Shown: positions 1-33,352 of the stretch, piece by piece
How positions within the stretch are numbered: the first letter of the stretch is position 1
Layout: every line of letters starts with the position of its first letter
Assembly (NCBI GenBank): GCA_026988115.1
Contig: JALSLV010000016.1
Span: forward strand, 1 to 64,000
Direction: 5' to 3'
Length of the DNA: 64,000 nt
Origin: Lysobacterales bacterium
Lineage (GTDB): Bacteria; Pseudomonadota; Gammaproteobacteria; Xanthomonadales; Marinicellaceae
Program-made: the position numbers and the translations under genes
The notes under the pieces: generated by a model
Database searches by the model: none
Told to the model about the DNA's origin: nothing
What the model saw: the letters and a program-made list of their open reading frames with translations, nothing else

Positions 1-46
1 GTTTAGTGATAATGGCTTGCCATTGTTCTTTGCTGCGTCTGATCAT
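1..46 (-). CDS. tnpA: IS66-type TnpA, N-terminal 15 codons (runs off the left edge)
   Basis: ATG at 46-44 opens MIRRSKEQWQAIITK and stays open to the window edge. IS66 TnpA proteins begin with a comparable R-x-x-E-Q-W-x-x-x-I segment, as part of a small helix-turn-helix accessory protein encoded upstream of tnpB and tnpC. The start sits about 80 bp inside the GTAAGCG terminus, the usual place for tnpA. Whether the rest of the gene is intact cannot be seen here. Confidence 0.55.
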   Translation of the reverse strand, partial: MIRRSKEQWQAIITK

Positions 47-94
47 TTGGTTATTCCTGATTTATAAATGCAGAAGTATGAACCAGATTGAGAT

Positions 95-184
95 TTAATT
101 ATAGGGGGTGGTTTGGTTGACGCTTACACTTTTTTGCTGTTTAGTGATAATGGCTTGCCATTGTTCTTTGCTACGTCTGATCAT
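95..184 (-). pseudogene. Truncated tnpA fragment of the second IS66-like left end
   Basis: The second copy of the left end repeats the tnpA start (ATG at 184-182) with one silent difference. After about 19 codons it runs directly into the next GTAAGCG terminus, which is read through as SVNQTTPYN and stops at 95-97. The reading frame is therefore a broken TnpA start of no expected function. It is useful as the exact break point of the second nested copy, at 127/128. Confidence 0.6.
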
Positions 185-332
185 TTGGTTATTCCTGATT
201 TATAAATGCAGAAGTATGAACCAGATTGAGATTTAATTATAGGGGGTGGTTTGGTTGACGCTTACTTTATAAATGCAGAAGTATGAACCAGATTGAGATT
301 TAATTATAGGGGGTGGTTTGGTTGACGCTTAC

Positions 333-578
333 ATTGCATTTCAAATAAGCCAAAATCAGTATTTTCCTAACAAGTCGTTCAAATAAACCAAGTTTCTTAT
401 TAATCTTTAAAAATACCCTGTGAAAAACCAGCAAAAAAAATGATTTTGACTAAGATTGGTTTTCTCTATAGATGGCTGTCCTTTGTATTATTCTCTATAG
501 ATGGCTGTCCTTTGTATTGTCGCACCTAAAAGAGTACCGACCCCTATAGCTCTTGTATTTTTGTCCTTTGTATTTTAA
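333..578. repeat. Gene-free stretch with a short repeat family (ATGGCTGTCCTTTG)
   Basis: I see no gene here. A 28-bp sequence containing ATGGCTGTCCTTTG is present twice in tandem at 462-489 and 491-518, with a third partial copy (TGTCCTTTGTATT) at 562-574. A diverged version lies at 4113-4140. Between the copies, 529-548 reads AAAGAGTACCGACCCCTATA, a degenerate copy of the GGGTACTGACCCC palindrome that is abundant at 3578-4108. The left part (333-460) is AT-rich with nothing I recognise. Confidence 0.6.
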
Positions 579-1376
579 TCATGGAGCTATTTCACTAGAC
601 TTAATACTCTTTAAGTATTTTATTGTTTCAATATTCTCAGCAAAGTCTTTAACAGCTTTTCTATAAAATTTAATTAATCCTTTTTTTAAATGTGACACAA
701 CTTCCTCAGGATCGATATCTTTAAGGACTGTGAAAATCGCTAATGTATACAAATGTTCATTTTGTGACAAATAACCTAGACTTTGAGATGACCATCCTTG
801 TGTTTCAGAGTCTTGAAATTGTTTAAATGAAAATGTACTATTTGAGAGAAAAATTCCAAACCCCATAAAAGTAGCAAGCAAATCTGTTGCGTGTTCCCAG
901 TAGTCGCTACCTCCAGGTGGTTCATTTTGGGCTGTAAACCCTAAAAAATGAGCTAACTCATGTGCGAAAGTCGCAATCAATTCTAATGGATTTTTCACTT
1001 GTGATGGATTGTAAGTGATTTTTGCCTTAGTATTATCATGATCAGAATACGAAAAAGTTCCTGCTGGACTTTGTTGAGTATTCGCTAATTTGACTGTTGG
1101 GGCTATATATGGATTCATGTCGTGATCTTGTACAACTAATTCACATGACCAATCTTGCATACCCGCATATTCTTGAACCCGCTTGAAAATTAACTTTGCG
1201 AGATATTTTTCATTAGTGATTTTATCAGGAAAGTATTTATCAGATGGGGTAACTAAAAATGTCTCTGAATAAAAAACATCCGAACCAAAATTTTCTAACG
1301 ACCAAGCAAAAGAATCAATTATCCACTGAATTGATTCTTCTCTTAACAGTGGTTTTTTCTTAAACAAATTAAACAT
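579..1376 (-). CDS. Putative cytoplasmic zincin-like metalloprotease (HELAH)
   Basis: 265 residues, no signal peptide and no membrane segment. HELAHFLG around residues 139-146 is a HExxH zinc-binding motif, followed about 20 residues later by YWEHATDLLATFMG, where the glutamate could be the third ligand. The family is not one I can name. The start ATG (1376) overlaps the end of the preceding gene by 8 nt, so it is translationally coupled as the last member of the module that follows the orphan rhs tip. By position it could be an immunity or accessory protein, or simply displaced cargo. The proteolytic function is inferred from the motif alone. Confidence 0.6.
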   Translation of the reverse strand: MFNLFKKKPLLREESIQWIIDSFAWSLENFGSDVFYSETFLVTPSDKYFPDKITNEKYLAKLIFKRVQEYAGMQDWSCELVVQDHDMNPYIAPTVKLANTQQSPAGTFSYSDHDNTKAKITYNPSQVKNPLELIATFAHELAHFLGFTAQNEPPGGSDYWEHATDLLATFMGFGIFLSNSTFSFKQFQDSETQGWSSQSLGYLSQNEHLYTLAIFTVLKDIDPEEVVSHLKKGLIKFYRKAVKDFAENIETIKYLKSIKSSEIAP

Positions 1377-1860
1377 TATCTTTTACAATTGATTTTGCTA
1401 TTACAATTCCTTTTAAACTCAAAACAATTCCCAGAATCAATTTAATTAAATATCCTACTAGGTATGCTTTATCTAAATTACTTATACTAAAAATTGATGT
1501 GTCAAATACTAATAGTGATATTCTTATTAGTTCACTAAATATGACCATAATCATATCGCAACTAATATAAACTCCTAATAAAATTAATGATATACCAAGA
1601 ATAGTATCAATCTTAAATTCGTATTTAGTTGTTAATACATTAATTCTTATATATTTTGTCAACACTTTTGGGCTTATAATAAAAACTCCACCAAAAATTA
1701 ACGGTAGTAAGAAAAATAATAGTAATGGAATTACTAACAATGGAAAATCCATAATCAATATCTGTTTTAAACTTAGAAAAATAAATGTTAAATCAGATAT
1801 TCCAAAAGCTATTATCAAAACCCCCAACAACCTTATTAGTGTTTCACTTATGTCTTTCAT
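1369..1860 (-). CDS. Four-helix integral membrane protein of unknown function
   Basis: 163 residues with four hydrophobic segments at about 8-30, 42-66, 83-110 and 133-155, and almost no soluble part. The arrangement (helix starting ETLIRLLGVL, long central hairpin, C-terminal helix) resembles the upstream neighbour at 1857-2297, so the two may be diverged paralogues. It overlaps that neighbour by 4 nt and the downstream HELAH gene by 8 nt, so all three are likely translated from one message. I recognise no family. Position behind an rhs tip makes a membrane immunity protein possible, but nothing in the sequence shows this. Confidence 0.6.
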   Translation of the reverse strand: MKDISETLIRLLGVLIIAFGISDLTFIFLSLKQILIMDFPLLVIPLLLFFLLPLIFGGVFIISPKVLTKYIRINVLTTKYEFKIDTILGISLILLGVYISCDMIMVIFSELIRISLLVFDTSIFSISNLDKAYLVGYLIKLILGIVLSLKGIVIAKSIVKDNV

Positions 1861-2297
1861 ATTGTTTTATCATATTGTTTAATAGTAGCAATTATAGATG
1901 AAAGTATAAACAAAAATAAAACAATTAAAACACTATGAAATATTATTGAATTATCTAGCTGTTCCATCTTTAGGGTTAAATCATAAGTCTCATCAACTAA
2001 CTTTCTAACAAATAAATCAATTAATCTATTTGAAACAAATATCAAGCTATTTACACTTAGCATTATATAAGTAAGTTTTGATATAATAATTTTTTCATGG
2101 CTTTTTTCATTAAAGTAAATCACCATGAAACCAATTATAGATACGATTATTGAGGTTAATATAGATACAGTAAATCTATAATTGAAAGTGTCAATACCAT
2201 TAAAAAATAAAAAATCCAACTCAATAATTGCATTTTCGAAAGATTTTATCATAAGAGTTAGTCCAACAATATATCTGATAATAGTAACCAACTTCAT
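1857..2297 (-). CDS. Four-helix integral membrane protein of unknown function
   Basis: 146 residues with hydrophobic segments at about 5-25, 43-63, 74-96 and 116-139. It starts 3 nt after the stop codon of the orphan rhs tip (2301), which is the canonical position of the cognate immunity gene in Rhs and contact-dependent toxin loci. Membrane immunity proteins are typical when the toxin acts at the inner membrane, but the tip's activity is unknown. No family recognised. The base composition is very AT-rich, like the rest of this module and unlike the housekeeping genes to the right. Confidence 0.6.
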   Translation of the reverse strand: MKLVTIIRYIVGLTLMIKSFENAIIELDFLFFNGIDTFNYRFTVSILTSIIVSIIGFMVIYFNEKSHEKIIISKLTYIMLSVNSLIFVSNRLIDLFVRKLVDETYDLTLKMEQLDNSIIFHSVLIVLFLFILSSIIATIKQYDKTI

Positions 2298-2300
2298 TGC

Positions 2301-3578
2301 TTAGAAGTAAGTTACAGATTTAACACAAACACAATTATTACTATTCATATCAACACCATTTGCAGAGATCATTGGTTTAGAGTCTGGATGGTCTCCTAAG
2401 TAAAAAGAACTATCTATTTTATCACAAACTTGAATACTTGGGTTTTTTAAAAGATCTAAAGCCGATTGTCTAGGTTTTGAGTCACATTTCCAAGCAACAC
2501 ATATCTTCGAATACTCATGACAGCTATTCTGCAGTAAACAAGAATTTTGGATAAATTCTTCTATTCCTTCAACATAATCTGATAACTTCTTACCTTCCTT
2601 AGACTCTCTTATTATAGCATTACGCCTATCTCTTTCAGCTTTTCGTTGCATAGCACGTTCATGATATCTACGCATAAATGCATCTCTATTATTATATGCT
2701 GGATCATATCTTTTTGTATTTTTGCGGTTTCTCCGTCTCAATCCATCACTGTCCTGATTATTTACAGGATCATTCGATACATAGCTATATAAATTTCCAT
2801 CTCCTCCAGCGAATCTAATTGGATCTTTACTTGTCCATCTACCTATTTCTGCATCATAATCCCTGTAACCAAAATGAGTCAGTTTTGTATCCGCATCATA
2901 AAGCCCTCCATGAAATCCAAAAGGTTGAAATCCTGGATTTGAATCACTTATAATGTTGCCCCATGAATCATAAGAAACTTCTTGGGCAATTACTCCTGAA
3001 TCAACGTCAACAATCAAAAAAGGTGTACCTAAATAGTCTGATATAATTCTATAAGTGATCCCTGATTTTATCATATAACTTGGTATATTTAACCGGTCTC
3101 CGTAAACAAATCTACTAATAATACTCCCAGAATCATCTAATTCTGCGATTGGGTTTAGATTGTCCTTATATAACCACTGTTTTACCATGACTCCATTAAT
3201 TTTTTTAGCAATTATTCTACTATTACCATCTGAAATATAATCAATAACTTCTCCATTAGGCTTTATTACTTGTTTTAACACACCCTCTATACTATAACTA
3301 TAATAGTAAGAATTTCCACCAGTTGTCTTGCTAACTAAAACACCATCATCTGTATAATTATATAAATTGCTACCGAAGGTTAGTATTCGGTCTTGTTCAT
3401 CATATGTGGCAACATGTATACCATCAACATGAGTTCTATTTCCATTATTATCATAACTCCATGAACTGATAACAGTACTGTCAAGTTTTTCTTGAATTAA
3501 CCGACCTGAAGTATCATATATGTATTCATGACTTTTCGTTATTGAATTTTTAGTAATAGTTTTTAAGATAATTCGAGC
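2301..3578 (-). pseudogene. Orphan rhs tip: 5'-truncated Rhs core with a C-terminal toxin-like domain
   Basis: The frame is open from a stop at 3579-3581 to 2301, but there is no good start codon before GTG 3281. Upstream of 3578 the reading frame is replaced by palindromic repeats. The protein matches the end of the big Rhs protein almost segment for segment: GNRTHV, LYKDNLNPIAELD, YGDR, NIPSYM, GFQPFGF, FGYRDYDAEIGRWTSKDP. It then diverges after the DxDGL boundary into a unique 146-residue tail with basic and Cys-rich stretches. This is the layout of displaced Rhs tips that serve as a recombination reservoir for the full-length gene. If translated from GTG 3281 it would make a 326-residue protein. 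Confidence 0.8.
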
Positions 3579-3708
3579 TTAAGGGGTCAGCTTAAGGGGT
3601 CAGTACCCTTTTTAATTTCCTCATACTTTTTTAGGTCTTCCACGGGTATTATAACCCACTTTTATTTTTAGTTTAGATTCAATTTGCGACTTAAATTTAT
3701 TGTTGTCA

Positions 3709-3783
3709 TCAATTAAAGGGGTCAGTACCCTTTATAACGTAGTTGGCAACTCCTACAACAAAAAATCTGGGTTTTCTTGGCAT
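3709..3783 (-). pseudogene. Truncated 5' end of a REP-associated tyrosine transposase (copy 1)
   Basis: ATG 3783 opens MPRKPRFFVVGVANYV, the typical N-terminus of RAYT/TnpA_REP transposases (Y1 HUH family: MPRKPRxxxxG followed by an HVI-RGN segment). After 16 codons it runs into a GGGGTCAGTACCC palindrome and stops at 3709. The catalytic HUH and Tyr motifs are absent. Upstream (to 3845) are the element's 5' leader and its terminal palindrome, so this is a left end cut soon after the start codon. Confidence 0.65.
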
Positions 3784-3898
3784 GTTTATATCTACAAAAG
3801 AAGTTATTGTAGCACAGAACCATTTAAAAGGGTACTGACCCCTTATTTTTCAAAAGGAGGTATTGTAGCACAGAATCATTTAAAAGGGTACTGACCCC

Positions 3899-3961
3899 TT
3901 AAGATTTATTTATAGCGTGGTTGGCAACACCTACAACAAAAAATCTTGGTTTTCTTGGCAT
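3899..3961 (-). pseudogene. Truncated 5' end of a REP-associated tyrosine transposase (copy 2)
   Basis: ATG 3961 opens MPRKPRFFVVGVANHAINK and stops after 20 codons, where it meets the next palindrome. The leader (3962-4000) and outer palindrome (4001-4023) match copy 1 closely. Between the two copies, 3846-3902 holds a third left end that is cut even earlier, inside the leader. No copy retains a catalytic domain. Confidence 0.65.
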
Positions 3962-4072
3962 GTTTATATCTACAAAAGAAGGTATTATAAGATAGAATCA
4001 TTTAAAAGGGTACTGACCCCTTACACCATTGGCTTTGTCAAATGTATAGTGCGTGTCCTAGGGTATTTTGTC

Positions 4073-4750
4073 CTAGGGTATTTGTTTAAAAGGGTACTGA
4101 CCCCTTAAAGTCTTCTTTATAGATGACTGTCCTTTGTATTTGATTTTTAAACTGCTTTTTATTAGATCAAGCAGTAGAGCTACTTTTTTTTCGTCTTTTC
4201 CTAAACTTGGTTTCACATTATTTTTGACATAGTTATCTATAAGCGCTTCCTCTATATCGTCAAGTTTAATATTATTAATTTTATAAATAATATTTTCCCA
4301 AAGATTTATTTCTTTTAAATCTTGAGGAAAATATTTTTTTAAGAAGTTCACATAAATTGTAATGCCATAACCATTTACTGCAGACTTATAGTAGTAATTC
4401 CTAGCTAGCTTTATATTTTTTTCAATATACTCTCCATCAATATATAAATCGCCTAAAATCAAACTAGCTGAATAATTACCTTTTATTGAAGCAAGGTTAT
4501 ACCAAAATAGTGCTTCTTCGATGTCATTTTCATGACGAAGATACCAACCACCAAAAAAAAAAGCACACTCTGAATCTTGATCGAAAGCAAATTTATGTAA
4601 ACCCTTACCATGTATCTCTTTTCTTCTAAAATCCTTAGCTTGTGAAGACGTCATTTCAATTTCTGGATTCACATTTTTTTTATTGCTTATGCACGAAGTA
4701 AAACTAGTCAGATATAAAATAGTTAAGCAAAGTTTAATAAAATTAATCAT
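4073..4750 (-). CDS. Sel1-like-repeat lipoprotein, candidate immunity protein of the Rhs tip
   Basis: 225 residues. Residues 1-20 are a lipoprotein signal with lipobox LTSFTSC. Residues 75-130 contain Sel1/TPR-like motifs (AFFFGGWYLRHENDIEEALFWYNLAS, then a GNYSASLILGDLY-type repeat). The start overlaps the rhs stop by 8 nt, the position of an immunity gene, and periplasmic Sel1 proteins are a known immunity type in secreted-toxin systems. The final 22 residues are encoded by the two repeat families (palindrome 4086-4108 and the CTGTCCTTTG repeat 4113-4140), so the native 3' end has probably been replaced by repeat DNA. Function in immunity is inference from position. Confidence 0.65.
   Translation of the reverse strand: MINFIKLCLTILYLTSFTSCISNKKNVNPEIEMTSSQAKDFRRKEIHGKGLHKFAFDQDSECAFFFGGWYLRHENDIEEALFWYNLASIKGNYSASLILGDLYIDGEYIEKNIKLARNYYYKSAVNGYGITIYVNFLKKYFPQDLKEINLWENIIYKINNIKLDDIEEALIDNYVKNNVKPSLGKDEKKVALLLDLIKSSLKIKYKGQSSIKKTLRGQYPFKQIP
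4113..4140. repeat. Third copy of the CTGTCCTTTG repeat
   Basis: Positions 4113-4140 match the tandem copies at 462-489 and 491-518, with ATGACTG in place of ATGGCTG and one further change. At both loci this repeat sits beside a GTACTGACCCC palindrome, so the two repeat families travel together and flank the rhs-tip module on both sides. Confidence 0.65.
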
Positions 4751-7700
4751 TTATTAGTCTCCAAACATTCTTTTTCCTTTTAGTGCCTGGAATTACTCTT
4801 TCCTTTGGTGCATAAACTGGATTCCCTAGAATATCATGTAAATCCTCTGCAGGCCCACCTTCTGAACCTGTTTCGCACGATTCTAATATAATAGTTTTGT
4901 CTTTTGTATATTCTTTATAGTCCTTAATAATTTTAGCTAACTCTTTGGGTGACAGTGTTATTTGTTCTCCATATTTATTAGTCACAACAAATTCTTCCTT
5001 AGTACCATGCACAACAACTGTAATTTCATTTGGGCCAGAGGTTACGTAATCAGTAGCTAACTCAACTAATCTTTTATCATCTTTATTTGCATATTTATCA
5101 AGTAAAATAATATCTGCTTTTAATCCAAGCATATCAATAATATTGACAGGATCACTAAAAACATACCCAAATAAATTCGTATCTCCTCCTCCAAACTTTA
5201 TTGGGTCTTTTGATCTCCACCTCGCAGAAGTAGCATCATAATCCCTAAACCCAAACCTCGTCAACCCAGTATCACCATCATAAATCCCACCAGCAAAACC
5301 AAAGGGTTGAAAGTCAGGATTTGAATCCGTCAAGACATTACCCCAAACATCATAACTCAATTCTTGAGCAATTGCACCTGTGATTGTGTCAATTATTTTG
5401 ATGGGAGAGCCTAATTGATTAGTAATAATTCTGTAAGTTGTGCCATTTTTAAGCATATAACTGGGAATATTGCCTCTATCGCCATAAATAAATCTGGTTG
5501 TGATAGCTCCATTTGCATCTAATTCGGCTATGGGGTTGAGTTTGTCTTTATACAGCCAGCCTTTGGTTATGACACCATTGACCTTTTTGCCCACTCGTCT
5601 GCCTCTTGGGTCAGTCAAATATTCAATCAATGTACCATCGGGTTTGGTGACTGATAGCAAATTACCCAATACATCATAATCATAAGTGGTAACATCTGTT
5701 CCATTGGTTTTGGTGAGTAATTCGCCATTATCGGTGTAAGTGTAGCTGTTTCCATCATAGGTGAGTAACCTGTCTTGGTCGTCATAGGTAGCGACTTGTA
5801 CGCCATTAACATGGGTGCGGTTGCCGTTGAGGTCATAAGTCCAAGTGCCTGTGATTGTGCCATCGGTTTTTTCTTCGATTAATCGCCCTGCTAAATCATA
5901 AGCATAGTCATAAACCGTGGTGGTGCCGTTGAGGGTTTCGGTTTTTGTGGTGATACGTCCGATTTTATCTCGTGTATAGGCTACATCATAAATATCTGCA
6001 CCGCTGTATTGGGCATTAAATGTAGCAAGTTCAGCAAAGTCGGAGAAAGTATTGCCGGTGGTGACATTGCCTAAAGTTGTGCCATTGATGATGCCACCTT
6101 TTTGAACTTCACGGCTTATAGTCATGGCTCCTGCTGTTGTCAATAGATTGTCATTATCATAGCCATAATTGATGGTATCTGTGCCATTGACTGTTCTGGA
6201 GGTGACTCTAAAGAGGTTATCATAGGTGCGTGCGACACTGCCTGTTTGATTGCCTGACCATGTGGTGGATAATGGCAAAAAGCCATCAAATGTGTAATCA
6301 AGTGTGATGCCCGCAGGGGATGTGATGTGATTGAGCTTGCCTGTGGTGGCATCATAGCCATAGTTGTAGGTTCCTGTTGGGGTGATTTTGCTCGCCAGTT
6401 TGCCTGTGGTGGCGTTGTAGTTGAGCGTTATTAACTGCCCATCGGGTCGGGTGATTTGGGTAATTTGTTTGTCTAAATTATAGGTATACTGTGTTTGTTC
6501 TACTGGTATGGCGAGCAAATCTGGTGGTGTATACTGCGTTTCTTGATCCATTCCATTGTAATCGAAATTATGTACAGGGCGACCTGGCGGGGTTAAGGAT
6601 TTTAGATTGCCATTGGCATCATAAGTATAAATGATTTCACGCAAATCGGGCATGATTTGTTTGGTGATGCGACCGTTGTTGTCGTATTCGAAACTGGCGG
6701 TTTGTCCGATGGCATTGGTTATTGTGTGTAATTCTCCATTCATACTACCTGAGTTATAATATGTGAGTATTGTTTCACGTTTATCAACACCTGTACCGAT
6801 CGAGATATTTTGCACTCGGCGGTTGGCATCGTAGTTTATTTCGGTGGGGAGGAAGCCTGTGGTTTGGACTTGTTGAACATCTAAATCAGTATTTAGGATG
6901 GTTGTATTGGTTCTTCCTTCAGGTGTGGTTGATTGGTAACCTCCATTTGTTCCTGGTATAGAACTTAGGGATTGATCAAACTCACTGACCCAATCTTGCC
7001 CATTGATGGTTGTGGTTCTTACGCTTGTATCAACTGGTGCGACTGTCCCTGCTGTGACGACTGTTTCTGCCAGGCTTGATTGAACTGTTTGAGTTAATCC
7101 TGTAGGGGTTGTGGTGGAGCTGTATGTAGTAAAACGTACATTTGCTCCCAGCCTATAAGTACTCCCTGTTTGTGAATTAATAATAGTGCCATCTGCGGTT
7201 GTTATTGATTTGGATCTTGGTGTTATTACCCTTGTCTGACTTGTTCCATCAGGGGCAGTTTCGATATAAATTTTATCGTAATAACGTTTATTTCGATAGA
7301 AAGAAGAAACTCTGCCTTCACCAGATGTCATGGTCTCTTGGGTTGTATCAGGCAATGGTCCGGGTGTCGTGCTTAGTTGCCATCCACCTCCTATTGGGTT
7401 TAAATCAGATAACAGTTGTCCAAATCCGTTATAGCTGTATTGGTAGCGGTTTTGGTTTCTATCGGTAAATGCAGTTAATAATCCTTGGGTGTATTCAAAA
7501 TCCCAGTGGTTATTGTTTGGGTCTGTGACCGTTTTTAGGCGATTGTCGGTAAAATAATCTAAGGTAGTGGTTTTCCCATACTCAGAGACAAATGCAATGG
7601 CTTTTTTACTCGCATCTCGTGTGATAGTTGTCACTTTTCCATTGGCATCGGTAATACTAACCAAAATACCATTGCTGTTATAAGCAAATTCCACATAGGG

Positions 7701-10700: not shown

Positions 10701-12350
10701 GCTGATTGTCTCGGGAAAAGGTGTGTATTCGGTTTTACTTAACGGTGGGGCAATATCGCTTGGATTGGGTGGTAGGGCTATGATTTCTAGGTTATAAGAT
10801 TGAGTATCTGTTGCACTTGTGCCATCATCGACTTGTACTTGAATAGGATAACTGCCTATTGTATCTGGTAACCAGGAAATCAACCCTGATGCACTAATTG
10901 TCATGCCAGTTGGTGGATTGATTAAGGCATAATTAATCGCATCGCCTTCATAATCTGATACGCTTAGTTGATAACTGTAACTAAAGTCTTTTTCACCTGA
11001 ACTAATTGGATAAGACTCAATAACGGGTGCTTGGTTGATGCCAACAACAATATCAAAACTCTGTGTTACTTGAGCTCCATAAGCATCGGTTACATTGACT
11101 GTCACTGCATAGGTGTTTGCCGTTAAGGCTGTCCATGTGATTAAACCATCGGCATCAATTGTCATTCCTGCTGGAGCAATGGTAAGAGCATAGGTCAAAC
11201 TGTGGTTTTCGGGGTCGCTTGCCACGACCTGATAACTATAGCTTCGATTTTCAGTGGCTTGTGTTTGCGCTATTGATGTAATGATGGGTTGTTGATTAAC
11301 AGATATTGTCATTAAGGCGCTATCAGGATTAGAGCCACAAATATTATCATCAACAACTAATTGTACAACATAATCACCTACAATATCTGGAGTAAATGTT
11401 GCCATCATCTGTGTTGGATTGGTAATTGTTGCACTGCTATTTGTTGGTGCTGAGAGTAAAGACCATTGGTAAGTTAAAACATCGAAATCTAAATCGAATG
11501 ATAACGAGCCATCTAATTGCATTTGCTGCCCAAGCACGCCCAGTTGGTCTTCTCCTATATTTGCAACGGGTTGAGAGTTGTTCATGCTTGGACTTGTACC
11601 ATTAACCTCAAAGCCATTAAGAAAAATTCGATCTAAAATGCACTGGATACCATTGGTGTTTTTATGAGTTGCATTTTTATTGTTGGGTGGCAACAAATTA
11701 TCAACAGAAATTATATTAACGAGTTGATTTCGAGAGGTTTTGCCATCACTGACATTTAGACGAACTAAATAACGCCCAACTTTATCTGTAATGATAAAGG
11801 CATTACTTTGGTTACCATCCGTTATATGTGCTTTTGATTGTGATGGTTTATTTAAGAGTTGCCAACTAAAGTCTAAGTTATCTCCATCAGGGTCATAGGC
11901 ATTATCTGCTGACAAATCGGTTACCTCGTCTCTGAGTGCCTTTTTATCGTAAATTTTAGGAATAATTGGTGAGGTTTCTTCGGTATTAACTTCAACTACT
12001 GAACTCGATTGATACTGACCATCACTGACCAATAATTCAATTTGATAACTACCTGCCACATCAATTGGCAAGAGTGGAGTTATCTTAGTATTATTATCTA
12101 ATTTTGCTTGGCTACCGGCTGGTTTGGAAAGTATTTGCCATTGATAACTCAGTCTATTTCCGTCAATATCTGTTGAATTGGATGCATTAAGTTTGACCAC
12201 GGTATTGGTGTGAGCGAATTGATTTTCACCTGCATTGGCTGTTGGTTTGTTTTTATTTATTGTTTGCGCCTTTATTGTGACAACAAAGGAGAATAACACG
12301 AATAAAAAAAGAATTGCGGTGCTGATGTTAGACAGGCTTTTAGTCCTCAT
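4743..12350 (-). CDS. Giant secreted Rhs/YD-repeat polymorphic toxin, teneurin-like layout
   Basis: 2535 residues from ATG 12350, chosen because a clear signal peptide follows (1-29, MRTKSLSN to KAQ) and AAAGGGA precedes it; the longer frame to 12539 would overlap truD. Domains: PKD-like 33-118 and 120-225; an IFLNGFE motif near 240; PKD-like 258-350; two cadherin/Ig-like 353-525; a carboxypeptidase-regulatory-like domain near 575-650; a Pro/Lys then Asp/Glu linker near 877-905; NHL repeats near 1150-1480; YD repeats to about 2300; Rhs core (YDVWGN, FGFRDYDATSARWRSKDP) ending at DMLGL. The last 128 residues are the variable tip. A His-Gly (about 2448) and an ESCETG cysteine (about 2492) suggest a caspase-like (clan CD) peptidase. 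Secretion route past the periplasm is not evident. Confidence 0.85.
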   Translation of the reverse strand: MRTKSLSNISTAILFLFVLFSFVVTIKAQTINKNKPTANAGENQFAHTNTVVKLNASNSTDIDGNRLSYQWQILSKPAGSQAKLDNNTKITPLLPIDVAGSYQIELLVSDGQYQSSSVVEVNTEETSPIIPKIYDKKALRDEVTDLSADNAYDPDGDNLDFSWQLLNKPSQSKAHITDGNQSNAFIITDKVGRYLVRLNVSDGKTSRNQLVNIISVDNLLPPNNKNATHKNTNGIQCILDRIFLNGFEVNGTSPSMNNSQPVANIGEDQLGVLGQQMQLDGSLSFDLDFDVLTYQWSLLSAPTNSSATITNPTQMMATFTPDIVGDYVVQLVVDDNICGSNPDSALMTISVNQQPIITSIAQTQATENRSYSYQVVASDPENHSLTYALTIAPAGMTIDADGLITWTALTANTYAVTVNVTDAYGAQVTQSFDIVVGINQAPVIESYPISSGEKDFSYSYQLSVSDYEGDAINYALINPPTGMTISASGLISWLPDTIGSYPIQVQVDDGTSATDTQSYNLEIIALPPNPSDIAPPLSKTEYTPFPETISFLYQNNPPVQVGMPVNTIEDYRVAVVTGKVLDEDNNPIRGIKVTINNHDEYGYTYTRDNGIFFMVVNGGGTVTVNFDKGGYLPVQRDVKTPWQEFAYVDDLIIVKLDDKVTAIDLTNTTQPYQVAQGNVVADMDGTRQATVLFPAGITATMTMPDGTTQSIDQLDVRATEYTVGENGPQKMPADLPTGSAYTYAVELSVDQALDSNATRVDFSQPVIFYLDDFIGFPQGVAVPTGWYDKQKAYWIPSDNGIVIKIIDIVNGQAVIDVTADDIDNAATQVLLDELGIDNNELIKLGQMYSVDKVLWRVSITHFTPWDHNWPYGPPDDVQNPPKPPKPPKPPKKKDPKKKENTDEDDDECDKKGCTINAQNRTLEESVPIIGTGLNLKYRSEEFEITALQNSIVDTLTIQVTGDTVPSSLAGIRLEYSIGNSGIKKVFFPIDTNISYEIPWFGLDRFGREAQKTRVKYKLHYVYPAKYIASPMVQQRLFAQVQNRGVMLYGNRASLTIDTQSKGYFNLYRRNFLSLSLVGSTKNKVINGTPMITLEGVKQEQLKLGGWGLDNHHVYDPESGVLFQGDGFKRKVFPTNASLGEIPSGVPTYGHAGPAIAAEAGTVSAVAVGPNGDVYFAADYNDGLVGRSTLIRKVTKNGTVFTIAGNTQWPTCEVLEGQNALESCIDYVNALAVDNAGNVYFDHQHVVDGSYRIRKISRSGLVTTVAGSDQIGNFADNIPATQATLYEINHIDFDKHGNLYISDYRRIRKVDLNGIITTIAGNGGIANIESGILATQAGIDFATGFTLNDDGSIYLADFGHFCIRQITTDGYIYKYFDSADCSSGFKKGLGGGGAFDYPRKLQLDDDGNLISQYNSFFDEHAIFKKSYKFGMSKILNDTFDGFSGDGGVFANAQFSSVSDFIYSNERGFIIADALNYRVRRVTPTDTVYTYAGNGSNSAIKQATQSNQAHFNQVVKGNNNNNILIPSRDGTLLYEFSSRGVHLRTLDSITAKPYVEFAYNSNGILVSITDANGKVTTITRDASKKAIAFVSEYGKTTTLDYFTDNRLKTVTDPNNNHWDFEYTQGLLTAFTDRNQNRYQYSYNGFGQLLSDLNPIGGGWQLSTTPGPLPDTTQETMTSGEGRVSSFYRNKRYYDKIYIETAPDGTSQTRVITPRSKSITTADGTIINSQTGSTYRLGANVRFTTYSSTTTPTGLTQTVQSSLAETVVTAGTVAPVDTSVRTTTINGQDWVSEFDQSLSSIPGTNGGYQSTTPEGRTNTTILNTDLDVQQVQTTGFLPTEINYDANRRVQNISIGTGVDKRETILTYYNSGSMNGELHTITNAIGQTASFEYDNNGRITKQIMPDLREIIYTYDANGNLKSLTPPGRPVHNFDYNGMDQETQYTPPDLLAIPVEQTQYTYNLDKQITQITRPDGQLITLNYNATTGKLASKITPTGTYNYGYDATTGKLNHITSPAGITLDYTFDGFLPLSTTWSGNQTGSVARTYDNLFRVTSRTVNGTDTINYGYDNDNLLTTAGAMTISREVQKGGIINGTTLGNVTTGNTFSDFAELATFNAQYSGADIYDVAYTRDKIGRITTKTETLNGTTTVYDYAYDLAGRLIEEKTDGTITGTWTYDLNGNRTHVNGVQVATYDDQDRLLTYDGNSYTYTDNGELLTKTNGTDVTTYDYDVLGNLLSVTKPDGTLIEYLTDPRGRRVGKKVNGVITKGWLYKDKLNPIAELDANGAITTRFIYGDRGNIPSYMLKNGTTYRIITNQLGSPIKIIDTITGAIAQELSYDVWGNVLTDSNPDFQPFGFAGGIYDGDTGLTRFGFRDYDATSARWRSKDPIKFGGGDTNLFGYVFSDPVNIIDMLGLKADIILLDKYANKDDKRLVELATDYVTSGPNEITVVVHGTKEEFVVTNKYGEQITLSPKELAKIIKDYKEYTKDKTIILESCETGSEGGPAEDLHDILGNPVYAPKERVIPGTKRKKNVWRLIND

Positions 12351-12379
12351 AATTTTCCCTTTAAAGTAAGATTGTGAAA

Positions 12380-12420
12380 ATATTACCACAGAAAATACAA
12401 ACAAACAAACAAACAAACAA
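12380..12420 (-). promoter_or_regulatory. rhs promoter region with six-unit tetranucleotide repeat
   Basis: On the coding strand, six TTGT units (12397-12420) lie about 47-70 bp upstream of the rhs start codon. A -10-like TAATAT is at 12385-12380. A 17-bp spacer would put the -35 inside the repeat (TTGTTT). Tetranucleotide tracts of this kind slip during replication and are a known basis of phase variation when placed in promoters. The promoter elements are my reading of the sequence and are not strong. Confidence 0.5.
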
Positions 12421-12569
12421 ATTTGGATTTGAATGTCAAATTTTAGTTCAGCTTTAACACTATTTATTTTGTTTATCCATCTTATAAAACCAGAGATGTA
12501 CCAGATTATATAACCGCAGTATTTAACAATTTCTTGCAATTAACAGGGCATTATACCGATAATATCAGC

Positions 12570-13610
12570 ATGACTTTAGATTTCAATACTTTGTTTCCAA
12601 CACGAAACACCATAACTGCCAGTGGTACAATTCGCACTAAGCCTGAAGACTTTCGAGTAACTGAGCTCAATGACATTGAGCTATCTGGCGAAGGCGAACA
12701 CCTATGGTTGACTATTCAAAAAACTAGCAACAACAGCATTTGGGTTGCCAAACAATTGGCCAATGTTTGTCAAGTACCGCAAAAGAAAGTGGCATTTGCT
12801 GGGCAAAAAGACCGTCATGCCATTACTCAACAGTGGTTTAGCATTCAATTGCCCAAAATTACGGATACAGACAAAATTCAATCGGCATTAGGTCACGGCA
12901 TACAAATCATTAAATCTGGCAAACACAGCCGAAAAATTAAAATTGGTCAATTAGATGCCAATGCTTTTGAAATAGTTATTAGAGACATTTCTGGTGACAA
13001 GCAACAAATTGAAAAAAACATAACCAATATTAAAGCCAACGGTGTACCCAATTATTTTGGTGCGCAACGTTTTGGGCATGACATGGGCAATATTAGCAAA
13101 TGCCAAGACTGGTTTGCAGGCAATTACAAGGTTAAATCCAGAAACCTCAAAAGCTTGCTTATTTCAACCGCTCGCAGTCACATTTTTAATCTCATCGTTG
13201 CCAAACGGATTGAACAAAATATATGGGATAAATGCATTGACGGCGATGTTTTGCAACTGAACAAATCCCATTCGTGGTTTCCCTCATGCGATGCAAGCTC
13301 AGATGAAATAGTCAAACGCCTAACAGAATTTGACATTCATTTGACCGCTGCTATGTGGGGCGATGATGCCGTGCAAAGCCAAGGGCAATGCGCACAATTA
13401 GAAAATTCAATTGCAAAAATCTTTCCAGTCTATCAAAAAGGCTTTGAAAAATTCAGACTCAAACAAGACCGTCGAGCCATGCGCGTATGCCCAATGGATT
13501 TTGATTTTTGTTGGCAATCAGATAACACACTAAAACTTAATTTCAAACTATTACCTGGAGCTTATGCAACAGGAATTATGCGAGAGATTCTTGATATTAA
13601 GAACGTTTAA
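12570..13610 (+). CDS. truD: tRNA pseudouridine(13) synthase TruD
   Basis: 346 residues from ATG 12570, preferred over an upstream TTG at 12534 because length and N-terminus then match TruD (about 349 residues). TruD isomerises U13 in tRNA-Glu. Diagnostic segments are TKPEDFRVTE, GEHLWLTIQK, the catalytic FAGQKDRHA with its aspartate, GVPNYFGAQRFG and the C-terminal PGAYATGIMREIL. It is transcribed divergently from rhs and stands alone: in E. coli truD sits with ispDF and surE, none of which is here. No strong ribosome binding site is visible. Confidence 0.93.
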   Translation: MTLDFNTLFPTRNTITASGTIRTKPEDFRVTELNDIELSGEGEHLWLTIQKTSNNSIWVAKQLANVCQVPQKKVAFAGQKDRHAITQQWFSIQLPKITDTDKIQSALGHGIQIIKSGKHSRKIKIGQLDANAFEIVIRDISGDKQQIEKNITNIKANGVPNYFGAQRFGHDMGNISKCQDWFAGNYKVKSRNLKSLLISTARSHIFNLIVAKRIEQNIWDKCIDGDVLQLNKSHSWFPSCDASSDEIVKRLTEFDIHLTAAMWGDDAVQSQGQCAQLENSIAKIFPVYQKGFEKFRLKQDRRAMRVCPMDFDFCWQSDNTLKLNFKLLPGAYATGIMREILDIKNV

Positions 13611-32428: not shown

Positions 32429-33352
32429 TTAATCTTCAGTTTTCTTAGTTACTTTTTTCTTAGTTACTTTTTTCTTAGTCACTTTTTTCTTGGTTACTTT
32501 TTTAACTTCTGCTTTGACTTCTTCTTTTACTTCTGGTTTTGCTTCTTCTGTTTTAACTTCTTTTGTTTTAACTTCTTCAACAGGAGTCGCTTCTTTTTTC
32601 TCAGTCTTTTTTGCAGCAACGGCTTTTTTTGCTTCTTTTTTTACTTTTTCTGCATCACTTGGTGCAGGCATTGAAGCGCGGCCTTCTAATACAGCATCTG
32701 CAAAAGTTGATGCGTACAATTTAATTGCTTTCATCGCATCATCATTTCCAGGAATGATATAATCAACACCTTCAAATGAATTATTTGTATCCACAACAGC
32801 TATCACTGGAATTCCTAATGTATTTGCTTCTTTAATCGCGATTGACTCATGCTTAGTATCAACAATAAACATTGCATCTGGAACACCAGCCATGTCCTTG
32901 ATTCCACCTAAAGATTTTTCCAATTTAGTTAATTCTCTTTCGTGCTTTAACTGCTCTTTTTTAATCAATTTATCCATGCGACCATCCGCTTTCATTGCTT
33001 CAATGTCACGAATTCTATTAATTGATTGTTTGACTGTCTTGTAGTTAGTCATCATGCCACCTAACCAACGGTTAGTCACATAAGGCATACCGCAACGAAT
33101 CGCTTCTTGCTTCATCACTTTACCGGCAGAACGCTTTGTACCAACAAACATAACTTTCCCACGGCGTGATGCCAAAGAACTTACGTAGTTTAACGCATCT
33201 TTCATTAGTTTTTCAGTCTTGGATAAGTCAATGATATGAATTTTATTTTTAGAACTAAAAATGTATTGATCCATTTTTGGATTCCAGTATCTGGTATTGT
33301 GTCCGAAATGTACACCAGCTTCCAGCAGCTGCTTTATGCTAACATTAGCCAT
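32429..33352 (-). CDS. rpsB: Ribosomal protein S2 with a long Lys/Ala/Glu tail
   Basis: 307 residues; the conserved S2 body occupies about 1-228 ([50 protein letters not shown]). The remaining 80 residues are a low-complexity tail ([17 protein letters not shown], then several KKKVT repeats encoded by a 15-bp tandem repeat). E. coli S2 ends soon after the body (241 residues). Tails like this occur in some low-GC proteobacteria, probably disordered and facing solvent. First gene of the 15-kb operon. Confidence 0.95.

Follow-up and report, generated by a model that had tools for sequence, protein, structure and literature searches.

A pure six-unit TTTG tract upstream of an rhs gene in a Marinicellaceae bacterium, a possible promoter-embedded modulator of expression

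In Neisseria meningitidis, the nadA gene carries a TAAA tract upstream of its core promoter that sets how far the NadR operators lie from the polymerase contacts; its length changes (quoted at ~4.4e-4) and their effect on expression have been measured, and its regulators include NadR and IHF (PMC2791445). A different arrangement is found in four complete genomes of Haemophilus influenzae, where the tetranucleotide tracts lie in reading frames (14/14, 12/12, 13/13 and 12/12; Table 3 of PMC2651432) and switch by frameshift inside those frames. The same paper describes over-represented repeats as reported predominantly from host-adapted prokaryotes. The tract that we describe here, upstream of an rhs gene, resembles the Haemophilus influenzae contingency loci in being a long pure tetranucleotide run that is rare in its genome and tied to an exported or surface function, but it precedes the start codon. 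With nadA (PMC2791445) it shares a tetranucleotide repeat rich in A+T that borders a core promoter on its upstream side, a horizontally acquired surface-protein gene bringing its own regulatory region, and a unit number that sets the distance to upstream elements and not the core promoter itself, the rhs side of this last point being putative. Unlike nadA, the rhs gene encodes an Rhs/YD protein of a marine bacterium, and whereas length change, expression effect and regulators are established for nadA, they are putative for the rhs tract. The searchable, mostly open literature on phase variation with Rhs, repeats and polymorphic toxins yielded no report of a repeat tract in an rhs promoter, and a search of the same kind yielded none of phase variation in Marinicella.

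The window analysed comprises 64,000 nucleotides (positions 1 to 64,000 of contig JALSLV010000016.1, assembly GCA_026988115.1), and its features are collected in Table 1. Repeat detection bore out the six-unit tetranucleotide repeat that a preliminary description had placed at 12380-12420: the run is perfect, with 25 bases or 6.25 units and 100% matches, and its end falls within one base of the one given there. The end of the six units is separated from the rhs ATG by 47 bp, the tract spanning 46-71 bp before the start. Runs of at least four TTTG units occur at one place in the whole 3.51-Mb genome, and dinucleotide shuffling of the window (100 replicates) gave no four-unit match. A second-order Markov model trained on 354,641 bases, the window among them, predicts a run of 25 bases ~1e-6 times per genome; within these sampled bases no tetranucleotide run other than the rhs tract reaches 14 bases, and 3.55 Mb of sequence simulated with a second-order Markov model contained no tetranucleotide run longer than 15 bases. 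The tract is thus far beyond chance and is a pure short repeat of the kind that characterizes simple-sequence-repeat contingency loci. Among 299 genomes of the order, at least five TTTG units were found in three, namely the rhs-tract genome (G000), G006, which belongs to the same genus, and G072, from another family, where the repeat sits in unrelated, GC-richer sequence. We rejected membership of the tract in a repeated genomic element, since the block that surrounds it has no second copy in the genome.

Table 1. Features of the rhs locus and location of the pentanucleotide tracts in the genus.
Feature	Position	Strand	Basis or remark
rhs gene, 2535 aa	4743..12350	-	signal peptide, PKD/Ig-like, teneurin-type TTR, NHL, YD-shell, RHS repeats and core
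Block with a counterpart on G006 contig C120 (covers promoter region, tract, start codon, first rhs codons)	12328..12465	-	79% identity
Likely Shine-Dalgarno AAAGGG	12358..12363	-	by eye
Putative -10 TAATAT, preceded by TGG	12380..12385	-	corresponding G006 site has TATTAT
Tetranucleotide tract, (TTTG)6 + T on the rhs strand	12397..12421	-	repeat detection, shuffles, genome counts
Putative -35 TTGTTT inside the tract	12403..12408	-	promoter scoring, not above shuffles
Conserved upstream element TGAACTAAA-n-TTTGACA	12434..12450	-	12 nt upstream of the tract, in this genome and in G006
truD, divergent neighbour, outside the unit	12570..13610	+	
(AGCAC)n loci, G000	C12 (L112), C64 (L102), C77 (L103), C87 (L104)		
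(AGCAC)n loci, G004	C54, C143, C197 (L105-L107)		
(AGCAC)n locus, G010	C53 (L108)		
(AGCAC)n locus, G006	C123 (L109)		
(AGCAC)n loci, G003	C82 (L110), C160 (L111)		
Further copy with AGAAC units, G006	C74 (L116)		

The product of the gene that follows the tract is an Rhs/YD-repeat protein, with matches to the RHS repeats (PF05593, 106 bits, cut-off 22) and to the Rhs-associated core domain (TIGR03696, 63 bits, cut-off 32.5). RHS repeats, Rhs core, teneurin-type TTR, NHL and YD-shell are common to this protein and to the Rhs/YD-repeat and teneurin-like large exported proteins. Its start is the ATG at 12350-12348, after which a signal-peptide-like sequence begins. The gene is accessory: relatives of its first 300 amino acids were found in 4 of the 61 genomes searched, its own included and one of them weak. 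A scan with the single protein found no named relatives, while an alignment-based scan retrieved Marinicella meishanensis and an assembly of Lysobacterales, together with a weakly matching Chromatiales assembly; by its first residues, the homologue in G023 (sister genus, same family) is the Marinicella meishanensis gene. In that species, positions 1-4870 of the locus (L052), upstream of the homologous 2427-codon rhs frame, hold frames that by eye resemble parts of a Tn7-like transposon; NCBIfam gave weak ATPase matches for one of three of these frames and nothing for the others. The region 3' of the rhs core in the window contains a short C-terminal region, a small Sel1-like gene and a separate Rhs-core fragment, an organization that would fit a candidate polymorphic toxin of the Rhs type. 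This fragment, located at 2736-3578 beyond the rhs 3' end, is 58% identical to rhs residues 2131-2411 and resembles the displaced Rhs-core tips that are known from rhs loci.

Comparison with the second tract-bearing species of the genus indicates which of the two divergent genes owns the tract. In G006, 134 bases of contig C120 match the block listed in Table 1, which begins ~115 bp upstream of the ATG and extends into the gene, where the first codons read MSTKSLS in one copy and MRTKSLS in the other. The block is common to two different genomic places, the one in G006 lying ~126 nt after another gene. Because the same block, start codon included, is found there beside another gene, the tract belongs to rhs and not to truD. 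Seven truD loci of relatives (G002, G006, G007, G009, two in G010, and G050), covered over 3.2 to 12 kb each, have no rhs beside truD, and on both counts we rejected the tract as an element of truD. One of the G010 contigs, C92, carries a second truD-like stretch (L030, 1800-2268) that is split in two pieces in different frames, ends after about residue 159 and is apparently a broken copy. About 30 nt of the reading frame are present before the G006 contig ends, and the remainder of G006 yielded no rhs body, so we infer the rhs identity of that gene from the shared start. Upstream of two rhs homologues, in G005 (same genus) and G023, the tract is absent in the sequence covered, and rhs genes of such kind can therefore manage without it. 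An interrupted TTTG/CTTG stretch in G003 (contig C128, L016, about 1500-1540) follows TGAACTAAA and precedes TATACT, a layout that resembles the rhs upstream region; we did not accept it as a homologue. A ribosomal RNA promoter was suspected there, but Rfam matched no RNA family in the locus.

Read on the rhs strand, the upstream region consists of TGAACTAAA-A-TTTGACA, 12 nt, (TTTG)6, 12 nt ending in TGG, TAATAT, AAAGGG and the ATG. The conserved TGAACTAAA-n-TTTGACA is a possible regulator site. The pattern of TGAACTAAA plus TTTG was mildly commoner than its backward control in 33 genomes (8 vs 4 places), 3 of the 8 places being one sequence found in three genomes. Promoter scoring, with textbook sigma-70 frequencies, gave as the best site with a fair -10 TTGTTT-17-TGG-TAATAT, 29 nt before the ATG, in the rhs genome and TTGTTT-17-TTG-TATTAT, 30 nt before the ATG, in G006. 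A higher total score was obtained with the perfect TTGACA that lies upstream (12439-12434), but its -10 would fall inside the tract and is poor. Since the best scores are unexceptional against Markov shuffles (reached by 88/500 for the rhs region and 78/500 for G006), the promoter position is taken as a working assumption. The earlier proposal that the tract covers the expected -35 is plausible in that the same form is seen in two species, and weak in that the hexamer matches TTGACA at 3/6 positions and the shuffles reach its score so often. When the tract was varied in silico from 3 to 9 units, the score of the core promoter was unchanged and the upstream TTTGACA moved 4 bp per unit; given the putative promoter, this arithmetic agrees with the claim that an altered length would shift upstream elements relative to the core promoter. 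The upstream spacing is 48 bp in the rhs genome vs 44 bp in G006, which differ by the length of one unit, and this difference falls beside the pure tract and outside the repeat itself.

We propose, with a probability of about 0.42, that the tract is a promoter-embedded, slippage-prone simple sequence repeat that grades the expression of a horizontally moving rhs unit. Whichever register of four bases is used, the tract would present a degenerate -35, so that the core promoter would be the same at any unit number, and each unit gained or lost would move TGAACTAAA-n-TTTGACA by 4 bp relative to RNA polymerase, slightly more than one third of a helix turn. Occasional strand slippage could then generate a population in which rhs expression is graded between cells and not strictly on/off, as with the TAAA tract of nadA; it is from this likeness, in which tract length sets the distance to upstream elements, that graded modulation is expected. 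The on/off switching of rhs put forward in the preliminary description is thus probably too strong, and its broader suggestion of phase variation at an rhs-promoter repeat stands in part, as the tract is beyond chance, moves with the rhs start and is conserved, but shows no length variation (n=2). If tract variation is of any benefit, a promoter tract moving with rhs would mean a costly exported protein arriving with its own bet-hedging control, and stochastic expression would enter the ecology of marine bacteria.

The two copies of the tract are identical at 24/24 positions, whereas the flanks from TGAACTAAA to the ATG are identical at 55/72, ungapped; if the tract had evolved like the flanks, the chance of 24/24 would be ~0.0016, a value drawn from a single sequence pair. 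Selection, or a continual slippage that keeps the repeat pure, would both give such a pattern. Both tract-bearing species, represented by one assembly each, have 6 units, and this lack of observed length variation speaks mildly against rapid change; a six-unit tract may readily change length, and six units are short for a fast-slipping tract. Taken by itself, the agreement at six units favours a fixed-length functional element near the core promoter, T-rich and UP-like or protein-binding, that is selected for sequence and length and hardly varies. The same 12-nt distance to the upstream element, kept together with the six units though the flanks differ at 17/72, is consistent with such an element; a binding site, however, would not require 24 bases of pure repeat, and comparable pure runs are otherwise absent from the sampled genome, and we consider this explanation somewhat doubtful.

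The tract might also be a passive microsatellite, produced by slippage and varying slightly with no effect on rhs, the real promoter being elsewhere or insensitive to spacing. That no promoter prediction here beats shuffles, and that the homologues in G005 and G023 have no tract, agrees with this, but two diverged copies retain a pure tract in the same position, and its location 46-71 bp before the start also speaks against a passive repeat; we consider this reading unlikely. A transcribed tract acting in the 5' leader, either through RNA folding or through translation from an upstream start in which slippage changes the frame, appears very improbable: no stop codon interrupts the rhs frame between a TTG at 12539 and the ATG, tract included, and the perfect TTGACA lies upstream, but the -10 required by that TTGACA scores poorly, no upstream start with a ribosome site was seen, and the signal peptide begins at ATG 12350. 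On the last point, and as no Shine-Dalgarno-like site was visible by eye, we rejected translation from upstream of the tract.

Our repeat survey also uncovered a perfect (TGTGC)12 tract on contig C12 of the rhs-tract genome. A search for four units of AGCAC revealed 11 loci in 5 of the 33 family genomes; these 5 all belong to the genus, which contributes 11 genomes to the set, and the backward control found no match in the same 33 genomes. The tracts at these loci contain 4.6 to 20.2 units (one is cut by a contig end at 5) and lie 29 to 40 nt downstream of an ATG that has a purine-rich, ribosome-site-like stretch. Where sequence continues past the tract (10 loci), one frame stays open for 96 to 330 codons and, by eye, has a signal-peptide-like stretch at its beginning; one of these frames has a subtilase domain. 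Read from the leader ATG, this frame is in phase at one locus (C64 of the rhs-tract genome) and out of phase at 9/10, of which G006 C123 is readable also from a TTG. Additionally, AGAAC replaces AGCAC in G006 C74, which is in frame (214 aa), and AGCAC units run into AGTAC units in G004 C143. The number of units differs widely between copies, each copy coming from single assemblies. From their structure, these loci look like strong candidates for translational phase variation, stronger than the rhs tract; they raise the prior for variation of the rhs tract and are not evidence on that tract itself. The searchable, mostly open literature on pentanucleotide repeats with signal peptides contained no report of (AGCAC)n loci. 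We tentatively suggest two layers of switching in this Marinicellaceae genus, in which the rhs-borne tetranucleotide would tune transcription and a pentanucleotide tract in a shared leader (AGCAC, in places AGTAC or AGAAC) would switch translation by frame in a family of exported proteins; the unit sequence differs from copy to copy and a 5-base repeat is kept in the same position, as would be expected were slippage itself selected.

Other repeats were observed in the same genome. Close to the (TGTGC)12 locus, a small exported-looking protein with tandem SVVGDGSNV copies is encoded at L074:17019-17312, and positions 32440-32578 of the window, which lie within a reading frame of 307 aa, are densely occupied by tandem repeats of 12 and 15 bases.
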